A stretch of 64,000 nucleotides of DNA from an uncultured Sphingomonadaceae bacterium (GTDB lineage: Bacteria > Pseudomonadota > Alphaproteobacteria > Sphingomonadales > Sphingomonadaceae), in the NCBI GenBank assembly GCA_947501695.1, contig CANMWO010000001.1:682001-746000 (forward strand), read 5' to 3'. The notes beneath the pieces were generated by a model that saw only the letters and a list, made by a program, of their open reading frames with translations, was not told where the DNA came from and did no database searches. Position 1 is the first letter of the stretch. Each line of letters starts with the position of its first letter. This document shows positions 50,769 to 54,476 of this stretch, in pieces. Both the position numbers and the translations under genes were made by a program.

Positions 50769-50795
50769 TCCAAAAAAACGCAATTAATGGTTGAT

Positions 50796-50853
50796 CGTCA
50801 CCCTGAACTTGTTTCAGGGTCCCGGGAGATGCTGAAACAAGTTCAGCCTGACG
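50796..50853. repeat. REP-like inverted repeat after rbfA
   Basis: Two arms of 22 nt (50796-50817 and 50832-50853) that are inverted copies with two mismatches, beginning CGTCACCCTGAACTTG. Such CTGAACTTGTTTCAG elements are common between sphingomonad genes. It lies between rbfA and tdk. Confidence 0.8.
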
Positions 50854-50871
50854 AAAGACTGAGGCAATCCC

Positions 50872-51454: not shown

Positions 51455-51532
51455 CGTCATCGCAGCGAAAGCTGGGGTTTCCTCGAATTAGCGCGCAATT
51501 TTAAGGAGATCCCAGCTTTCGCGGGGATGACG
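51455..51532. repeat. REP-like inverted repeat between tdk and the GNAT gene
   Basis: Arms beginning CGTCATCGCAGCGAAAGCTG (51455-) and ending AGCTTTCGCGGGGATGACG (-51532) form an imperfect long hairpin that fills nearly the whole 89-nt gap. The GTG start of the GNAT gene lies 8 nt after it. This CGTCATCCC...AGCTGGG sequence type is widespread in alphaproteobacterial genomes. Confidence 0.8.
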
Positions 51533-51539
51533 CGTTGAA

Positions 51540-52088
51540 GTGAAGTTTGAAAACCTGTCTCAAGTGCTGGAGCAAGCCCCGGTACGTCTTGAACCCTTGG
51601 CCGAGCATCATATCGAACCATTGCGCGCGGCCTGTGCGGAGGATCAGGAGGTTTGGGACATCTATCCGGTGTCGATGCTCGACGAACATTTCGACAGGGC
51701 AATGGAAGTTTTTCATCGCACTGGTAACTGGGTACGCTTCGCAGTGATCCATGCGGACACCGGAAAGCTGGTCGGCATGAGCAATTACATTAATCCTGAT
51801 CCAAATACGAAAGTGACGGAGATCGGTGGCACTTACATCGAGCCTTCCGTGCGCGGCAGCGGCTTTAACGATTTGATGAAAAAGCTGATGATTGATCATG
51901 CGTTTGCCTGCGGCTTTACCCGCATCGAATTTCGCGTCGATACCCGTAACAAACGCTCCATGGCGGCGGTGCTGAAGCTGGGTGCCAAGCATGAAGGGAC
52001 GCTGCGTAAAAACCGGATTACCTGGACTGGCTATATTCGCGACACGGCTGTATTCGGCTTGCTCCAAGAGGAGTGGGCGAACCGCTAA
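51540..52088 (+). CDS. GNAT family N-acetyltransferase
   Basis: 182 residues from GTG 51540. RimJ-like GNAT: VRLEPLAEHHIEPLRAAC, EIGGTYIEPSVRGSGFNDLMKKLMIDHAF (acetyl-CoA-binding R/QxxGxG/A equivalent: RGSGFN), RIEFRVDTRNKRSMAAVLKLGAKHEGTLRKNRI. Probably acetylates an amine (protein N-terminus or small molecule). Its stop overlaps the next gene's start (TAATG). Confidence 0.85.
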   Translation: MKFENLSQVLEQAPVRLEPLAEHHIEPLRAACAEDQEVWDIYPVSMLDEHFDRAMEVFHRTGNWVRFAVIHADTGKLVGMSNYINPDPNTKVTEIGGTYIEPSVRGSGFNDLMKKLMIDHAFACGFTRIEFRVDTRNKRSMAAVLKLGAKHEGTLRKNRITWTGYIRDTAVFGLLQEEWANR

Positions 52089-53405: not shown

Positions 53406-54476
53406 ATGCATTTGAAACCGCACGGCTGGATCATACTTGATAAACCGCTGGAACTGGGGTCGACACAGGCTGTTGGCGCAGTGAAACGCAACTTGCGCGA
53501 GGCCGGACTGCTCGGAAAGGGCAAGGACAAGACCAAGGTTGGCCATGGCGGGACGCTGGACCCGCTGGCGACCGGGGCTTTGCCGATTGCCATTGGCGAA
53601 GCAACAAAGCTGTGCGGGAGGATGTTGGATGCGTCCAAAATCTATGAATTTACGATCGCATTTGGAAGCGAGACCGAGACGCTGGACGCTGAAGGTGCAG
53701 TTTCAGAGACTTCGGACCATTTGCCGACATTGGCAGAAGTGGAAGCGATATTGCCGCAATTTACCGGGCCGATTGAACAGATACCGCCAAAATATTCTGC
53801 CCTGAAAATTGATGGCAAGCGCGCTTATGATTTGGCACGTGCTGGTGAAGCGGTCGAGATGAAGATGCGGAATGTGACTATTTATTCCCTTGCTGTCTCC
53901 TCTCCCCTTGAGGGAGAGGAGAGGGATGCTTGTGAGCGGAGCGAACTAGCTAAGCTTGGTGAGGGGTTGAGAGAGAGCGCCCAGCCAGACCCCTCTCCAA
54001 CTCGACTAGGGCAGCAAGCTGCCAAGTCTCCGTTTCCTCTCCCTCAAGGGGAGAGGATTGATTCTGTGACCCTCACCGCCAACGTTTCCAAAGGCACTTA
54101 TATCCGTTCTCTCGCCCGCGATATTGCGCGTGCGCTCGGTACGGTCGGGCATGTCACTATGCTGCGCCGCACCAAGGCGGGCCCGTTCATGCTCAAACAT
54201 GCGATTTCGCTGGACAAACTCAATGAAATTGGTAAGGGCGCGGACATTAAAGATTATCTCTTGCCACTTGAGGCAGGGCTGGACGACATCCCGGCTTTTG
54301 ACCTCACTCCTGATCAGGCGAGACTGCTTCGGCAAGGCCAACGGCTGGACGAACAGGATTTGATCGGGAACCCCGCCATAAACGGGCTCTTTTTAGCAAC
54401 CGAGGATAATTCTCCGGTAGCGCTGGCAGAGCTGGTTGATGGGACCATCAAGGTCGTTCGCGGGTTTAATTTCTAA
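53406..54476 (+). CDS. truB: tRNA pseudouridine(55) synthase TruB carrying an in-frame palindromic insert
   Basis: Makes pseudouridine 55 in the tRNA T-loop. Catalytic Asp52 is in KVGHGGTLDPLATGALP; IPPKYSALKIDGKRAYDLAR and VSKGTYIRSLARDIARALGTVGHVTMLRR are conserved, so the core is intact. Length is 356 residues against about 300 in relatives. The excess is 53 residues, 165-217, encoded by 53898-54056. They are translated from a repeat with exact 23-bp terminal inverted repeats, starting SSPLEGEERDACERSELAKL and ending SPFPLPQGER. Removal restores a normal junction, ...YSLAV-IDSVTL. The insert lies between two conserved strands in the catalytic domain, where a surface loop could tolerate it. 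It lies 24 nt upstream of rpsO. Confidence 0.95.
   Translation: MHLKPHGWIILDKPLELGSTQAVGAVKRNLREAGLLGKGKDKTKVGHGGTLDPLATGALPIAIGEATKLCGRMLDASKIYEFTIAFGSETETLDAEGAVSETSDHLPTLAEVEAILPQFTGPIEQIPPKYSALKIDGKRAYDLARAGEAVEMKMRNVTIYSLAVSSPLEGEERDACERSELAKLGEGLRESAQPDPSPTRLGQQAAKSPFPLPQGERIDSVTLTANVSKGTYIRSLARDIARALGTVGHVTMLRRTKAGPFMLKHAISLDKLNEIGKGADIKDYLLPLEAGLDDIPAFDLTPDQARLLRQGQRLDEQDLIGNPAINGLFLATEDNSPVALAELVDGTIKVVRGFNF
53898..54057. repeat. Palindromic element inserted in frame in truB
   Basis: Terminal inverted repeats of 23 bp, exact: 53898-53920 and 54035-54057. Each arm is itself a hairpin, CCTCTCCC with GGGAGAGG around CTTGA (loop) in the left copy. The core holds a weaker inverted pair (GGTGAGGGGTT near 53960 against GACCCCTCTCC near 53990). 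The sequence type CTCTCCCCTTGAGGGAGAGG is a common intergenic repeat in sphingomonads; here it is inside a gene. The inserted length, 159 nt, keeps the frame. Confidence 0.9.

Follow-up and report, generated by a model that had tools for sequence, protein, structure and literature searches.

An in-frame palindrome in truB

The subject of this study is truB, the gene for tRNA pseudouridine-55 synthase, in a 64-kb stretch of DNA (64,000 nucleotides, hereafter the window) from an uncultured Sphingomonadaceae bacterium, together with a palindromic element that lies inside its reading frame (Table 1). The gene product has the TruB_N and TruB_C_2 domains and the TruB fold, and the element falls between the two domains (TruB_N at residues 42-165, TruB_C_2 from residue 234). 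The initial annotation had described exact 23-bp terminal inverted repeats and 53 extra codons, and both statements held. The repeats are perfect, with ungapped arms that reach 40 nt at 85%, the frame through them is open, and the element, which measures 160 nt with both ends, accounts for a net gain of 53 codons within a 1-base ambiguity at its borders. That a palindromic element is read in frame as about 53 extra TruB residues is therefore confirmed. The same annotation called truB an essential-type gene, which is overstated, since truB can be deleted in E. coli.

The element belongs to what is here called family A, the ends of which read TCCTCTCCCC. The motif CTCTCCCCTTGAGGGAGAGG, allowing up to three mismatches, has two sites in the window, both being arms of the element, with 0.01 expected by shuffling. 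RNA folding of positions 53896-54060 gave -100.5 kcal/mol (z -8.29), a value equalled by none of 200 dinucleotide shuffles. Only three inverted repeats in the window score 14 or more, the truB element at 23 and two others at 17, and none did so in any of five shuffles.

In a structure model of the window protein (mean predicted local distance difference test score, pLDDT, 86.6; predicted template modelling score, pTM, 0.81) the insert joins the strands at residues 155-164 and 220-227. Most of the core has a pLDDT above 90, insert residues 170-172 and 175-211 fall below 50, and a short helix at 173-183 is of low confidence. The best match of the model in PDB is 1k8w, E. coli TruB with RNA (template modelling score 0.74/0.86), and in the E. 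coli protein the turn has about 7 residues. The insert is modelled as a disordered loop between the two strands. The gene directly downstream is, from its sequence and its position ahead of pnp, presumably rpsO.

Table 1. Features of the truB locus in window coordinates; L316 is a DUF559-bearing element described below.
Feature	Coordinates	Strand	Basis
truB, tRNA pseudouridine-55 synthase with in-frame insert, 356 aa	53406..54476	+	single open frame; Pfam domains; structure model
Family A palindromic element, read within truB as about residues 165-217	53898..54057	+	inverted repeats, fold, relatives
Left terminal inverted repeat, 23 bp	53898..53920	+	
Right terminal inverted repeat (23 bp), perfectly complementary to the left	54035..54057	+	
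Left part of insert, matching the left end of L316 (1499-1575, 74%/78 nt)	53898..53975	+	alignment
Right part of insert, matching the right end of L316 (1926-1994, 79%/70 nt)	53989..54056	+	alignment
Gene directly downstream of truB, 89 aa	54501..54770	+	open reading frame

Recurrence at a single TruB turn

TruB sequences came from 94 of 98 relatives and from 137 of 139 genomes of the family, to which the best 80 of 590 named loci and further fetched stretches were added; with 17 identical proteins dropped beforehand, they formed a set of 243 distinct proteins. Element classes were set by motif with mismatches or by a fold z below -4 (40 mononucleotide shuffles), 17 labels being assigned by hand. 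The recurrence of palindromes at one TruB loop is well supported. The same turn is occupied by a classed palindromic element in 92 of the 243 proteins (z below -4 in 78, motif alone in 14), and both halves of the protein are complete in one frame in 91 of these carriers, the remaining one beginning at a contig end. After hand correction the carriers comprise 13 of family A, 17 of B, six of C, eight of D, 35 of E, eight of F and five singletons. Families B and C, which start with CGTC, look like the CGTC-tagged repetitive extragenic palindromic sequences (REPs), and A, E and F are GC-rich palindromes. At the turn, the different families are inserted within a few codons of one another, and every insertion of at least 15 residues among the 243 proteins lies there, except in one sequence where it follows residue 264.

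It had been expected from the window alone that relatives would lack residues 165-217. Some do have a short turn, but nine sister species share the same family A insert at the same place (L006-L015, ten species of the genus with that of the window), which rules out an event confined to the window's strain, and others hold different repeats. The single case first described was thus an incomplete view, as several repeat families recurrently enter this loop, and the DUF559 partner described in the next section had been missed. Carriers make up 27 of the 29 rows from the genus and none of the 16 rows from the same order outside the family (L060-L075). Among the 151 rows lacking an element, the loop has at most 20 residues in 94 and is longer in 57. 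Carriers include Sphingobium psychrophilum (L080) and Novosphingobium sp. Chol11 (L081) for family A, Erythrobacter colymbi (L151) for B, Erythrobacter ramosus (L126) for C, Sphingomonas sanguinis (L118) for E and, as a singleton, Sphingobium quisquiliarum (L121).

A class-wide draw found TruB_N in 124 of 133 genomes. The turn could be read in 35 of 38 loci (L421 is without sequence; L411 and L414 are incomplete) and is short in most. L415, L417 and L419 have a long turn that in part is low-complexity sequence, and in L416 and L418 an insertion lies earlier, before the strand. These loci were not folded, and the sample is uneven, as L415-L422 were picked for odd length or small genome.

The insert peptide is hardly conserved as protein. 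Across the ten A rows its dN/dS (non-synonymous over synonymous divergence) is 0.48 (dS 0.163, dN 0.078) versus 0.085 for the rest of truB (dS 0.477, dN 0.041), and variable sites at codon positions 1, 2 and 3 number 12, 11 and 17 over the 53 insert codons versus 53, 23 and 166 over 288 codons elsewhere. Four of the five E rows in the genus (L018-L021) give an insert dN of 0.142 and dS of 0.110 (ratio of means 1.3), and four of nine B rows (L038, L039, L040, L044) give 0.125 and 0.247 (0.5). Since the insert evolves with little codon bias, the peptide would be a disordered passenger with no protein-level role.

A survey of strong inverted repeats compared truB with its neighbouring genes. In 1,435,170 bases around truB from 80 genomes there are 61 strong inverted repeats, and none after shuffling. 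The truB loop holds 16 of them (13 tagged, with L077, L083 and L102 assigned by position). Of the 45 outside the loop, 21 are spanned by a frame of 150 aa and 24 are not; for 17 of the 21, one or more of these frames were scanned with Pfam, leaving out the third repeat of L113, the first of L121, and those of L148 and L153. Just one outside repeat lies within a gene with flanking domain matches, a class I tRNA synthetase of Sphingobium sp. DEHP117 (L136, 18536-20875). Repeats in L111, L121 and L132 precede the first domain of their frame, and the rest of those scanned had no Pfam match.

Several individual loops differ from the common pattern. Those of L082 and L158, of 113 and 94 residues, contain pieces of families B and D together and are composite or nested insertions. 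In L028, L029, L034, L129, L143 and others the same turn is occupied by a loop (about 37 residues, GRPDPYDPxAPLELADSV) that is conserved and not palindromic, and that may be an old, domesticated insert. In L233 (genome G185) the usual TLxAxVSKGTY strand after an F-type insert is replaced by an unrelated peptide before the frame is restored, reflecting either an out-of-frame insertion flanked by two shifts that compensate for each other or an error in the sequence. The record titled Bacillus sp. 2B10 (L155) has a sphingomonad-type truB, and the assembly is probably mislabelled or mixed.

DUF559-bearing elements and dispersed copies

Matches to the family A arm are dispersed in genomes of the genus, with 35 in G006, 25 in G027 and 21 in G031. 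Pairs of arms about 475 nt apart enclose an open reading frame identified as DUF559 (PF04480). Two of these A-flanked frames scored 139.3 and 137.4 bits (Pfam cut-off 20.6), and the A-flanked DUF559 protein has one PDB match, 3hrl, an 'Endonuclease-Like Protein'. The window insert aligns to both ends of one such element, L316, with the middle absent: the DUF559 frame of L316 (1583-1954) is missing apart from its last codons, which are held in the right end (1926-1994). Miniature inverted-repeat transposable elements (MITEs) have the same layout, with terminal inverted repeats and a gene-less body matching the ends of a longer, gene-bearing element, but the element here is without a known insertion-sequence transposase. 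This alignment is what a non-autonomous, MITE-like derivative of a DUF559-bearing element, formed by internal deletion, would give.

DUF559 was found in 29 of the 32 genus genomes, and the bracketing of these genes by inverted repeats is well supported: 22 of 30 loci were bracketed at E<1e-4, compared with 0 of 150 and 0 of 300 random windows. A phylum-wide draw found DUF559 in 19 of 60 genomes, with 10 of 22 strong loci bracketed at E<1e-4 and 14 of 22 at E<0.02 (300-nt flanks, against 260 nt in the genus; eight of 30 loci, mostly weak matches, were left out). Bracketed DUF559 genes seem to make up a family of small mobile elements that carry a nuclease. The sequence of the palindrome itself varies between DUF559 loci, both in the genus (L325-L354) and in the phylum (L355-L367, L374-L382). 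When the truB inserts were compared with the genus DUF559 flanks at E<1e-4, matches were found for 12 of 13 A inserts, 32 of 34 E, nine of nine F and three of 10 others (labels as they stood before hand correction, with one short loop counted among E).

Twelve genomes (G001, G005, G007, G010, G011, G012, G018, G019, G020, G022, G024 and G030) have a DUF559 gene downstream of truB, at a distance of about 6-12 kb and with the same orientation. Local hopping from these genes into truB was considered and rejected: in the four of the 12 that were compared (L345, L347, L348, L349) the DUF559 flanks are F-like or unclassed, and truB holds B, A, B and E elements, respectively.

Origin of the insertions and relation to known repeats

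The reading we favour, with a probability of roughly 0.75, is that the window insert is a fixed, non-autonomous family A element with DUF559-bearing relatives, of a kind that has recurrently entered a permissive TruB turn. Elements would land in many places, and copies within genes would be lost by selection unless their length, frame and place left a working protein; the TruB turn, tolerating 10 to 113 residues, would then act as a safe harbour. A stop-free frame is present in nine of 21 gene-less dispersed A copies, so that an in-frame copy is not to be expected of a random one. With less assurance, the DUF559 nuclease can be named as candidate mover of families A, E and F, and by analogy with the transposases proposed for GTAG REPs we infer that it may move the repeats. 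A broader proposal, to which we would give somewhat less than an even chance, is that DUF559 genes, together with the palindromes around them, make up a hitherto undescribed kind of small mobile element that is widespread, with a Vsr-like nuclease propagating its own ends and giving off copies that lack the gene, and that sphingomonad copies and other palindromes use the one TruB loop as a recurrent safe harbour, having added protein segments dozens of times.

A number of points weigh against the favoured reading. Further copies of the element had been predicted for the genome, and these exist in sister genomes, but in the window's own genome the truB arms are the only matches to the A arm at up to three mismatches, and that genome also gave no DUF559 match, so mobility is not visible there. 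Translation of the insert is deduced solely from its open frame, and movement solely from sequence comparison. At the looser threshold of E<0.02, which brackets 27 of the 30 genus DUF559 loci, 2 of 150 and 20 of 300 random windows (22 of 450 in total) were bracketed as well. In the flank comparison, none of the 28 truB inserts of families B, C and D matched. In favour of the reading, other A copies are more numerous in genomes with an A-flanked DUF559 (median 9, n=11) than in those without (median 1, n=21; 32 genomes, p 6e-5), but the test ignores kinship, takes flank type from fetched loci only and counts among the 11 two in which the A motif is present on a single side. Also in its favour, on an unrooted TruB tree built without the loop columns (FastTree) the distribution of states requires no fewer than 61 changes (A 5, B 14, C 6, D 8, E 23, F 8), or 41 for element versus none; recombination of truB may inflate this count, although the different families stay distinct regardless. 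Finally, insert dS is lower than that of flanking synonymous sites, at 0.18 versus 0.49-0.63 in the A clade and 0.11 versus 0.84-1.0 in the E clade, a difference not expected under plain neutrality; this again weighs against the reading.

Recurrence at one place could also arise at the DNA level, if elements or a resident palindrome attracted others and the permissiveness of the loop were secondary. The entry of different families within a few codons of each other, and the composite loops with B and D pieces, would fit such a landing site. By eye, however, the flanks show no evident common target besides conserved coding sequence, and those of dispersed A copies are varied; moreover, the same turn is used by DUF559-linked and unlinked families, which fits a permissive place better than the target of one enzyme, and we regard a landing site as unlikely. 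No target-site duplication was noticed by eye, and without statistics, in the flanks of 22 A copies.

Slightly less probable again is that the hairpin itself has been selected for its RNA or DNA structure, as would be the case if it slowed ribosomes mid-truB or affected processing of a truB-rpsO-pnp message, with the peptide a by-product. The hairpins are very stable in several families, and the insert diverges less than adjacent synonymous sites in three clades. Yet dS in the last part of truB is equally low in these three clades (0.14-0.24, versus 0.49-1.0 elsewhere outside the insert), and this, together with recombination, makes the low insert dS a weaker sign of hairpin selection. Nor is a hairpin required, given the element-free rows and their many short loops. 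Of the 55 pairs predicted for the A clade, 12 are disrupted in one or more of the ten sequences and only two have changed on both sides, and the covariation term of 0.18 gives no support. Covariation and rates together lean against selection on the hairpin.

A spread of family A by REP-associated tyrosine transposases (RAYTs) or other Y1 transposases, in place of DUF559, is disfavoured and very improbable. GTAG REPs are tied to such enzymes (PMC3733652), and Y1_Tnp matches occur in 13 of 32 genus genomes, including the window's own. The five genomes richest in A matches (G006, G027, G031, G026 and G023) have no Y1_Tnp match, and none of 20 Y1_Tnp loci tested, of 22, is bracketed by inverted repeats or has A arms. 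REPtrons, in which a RAYT gene is flanked by REPs, resemble the present elements in having a small gene between inverted palindromes and dispersed gene-less copies, but the bracketed gene here is DUF559 (Vsr-like; PMC12907096) and not a Y1 transposase. As for an insert missing from the mature protein, through bypassing or through cutting of message or protein, a hairpin within the reading frame and the low protein-level constraint would suit it, but bypassing would not require the frame to stay open in all carriers save the one at a contig end, and this is the least credible of the alternatives.

Within the genus, the ten truB copies of family A cluster together, apart from 21 gene-less A copies elsewhere (a tree without support values), which points to a single, old, ancestral insertion; inserts of family A from three other genera (L046, L080, L081) are placed elsewhere in that tree. 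Trees of the regions upstream of truB, its 5' part, its 3' part and downstream conflict among L006-L015, and the truB locus of these species is subject to interspecies recombination. An insert tree that differs from the rest suggested that the A insert had been replaced several times in the genus; this was rejected, as trees of the flanking parts conflict too and the truB A copies cluster. Recombination between truB alleles is sufficient, so repeated arrival within the genus was dropped, and the simplest history is one ancestral insertion that was then inherited while truB alleles recombined.

Palindromes within protein genes have precedents. Rickettsia palindromic elements (RPEs), of about 150 bp, form in-frame fusions (MITE review, PMC10969869), and the TruB of R. 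conorii is reported to carry RPE-1 (PMC3733652). The likening of the window element to RPEs in the initial annotation stands for the frame, a palindrome read within a protein gene, and for dispersal in related genomes, and falls for a strain-level event, given the ten species. Compared by description only, the systems differ in that several families here enter one loop, three of them DUF559-linked. REP-bearing truB genes have been listed for Erythrobacter litoralis, Sphingopyxis alaskensis and Stenotrophomonas maltophilia (Di Nocera et al. 2013, PMC3733652), and in the accessible part of that report the TruB inserts are not assigned to a single site, DUF559 is unmentioned and CGTC repeats are said to be without a transposase. 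Families B and C share the CGTC start. Family A, with 23-bp perfect terminal inverted repeats, departs from the CGTC end and 8-9 bp stem of those REPs, and neither a CGTC nor a GTAG tag was seen in A, E and F. Enterobacterial RU elements are likewise small repeats with reading frames fused to other genes, but, as far as PMC2759123 is available, none is reported within conserved domain sequences and no recurrence at the same site is described. The Caulobacter DUF559 protein VsrA, also alphaproteobacterial, is held responsible for the SOS response in cells without a cytosine methyltransferase; words for transposition and inverted repeats are absent from the main text of that source (PMC12907096). 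A literature search, with most subscription papers out of reach, found no account of a DUF559-palindrome link or of same-loop recurrence in TruB. In-frame palindromes and REPs in the TruB of two sphingomonads were thus already known, and the same-loop recurrence and the DUF559 link are apparently new.

From Rickettsia it was known that palindromes can turn into protein segments, but the scattered cases left undecided whether the place or the element matters. Here there is a natural series at one protein turn, which different families have apparently reached many times and where decayed and composite stages can also be seen. It occurs in a bacterial family with cultured members, and it makes how repeats become protein parts directly testable. 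The DUF559 link provides a candidate mover for three GC-rich palindrome families; for the CGTC-type families B and C, the comparison with DUF559 flanks yielded none either. Two other palindromes of the window have CGTC-type ends, at 50795-50854 and 51455-51532, the latter just ahead of an open reading frame at 51540.
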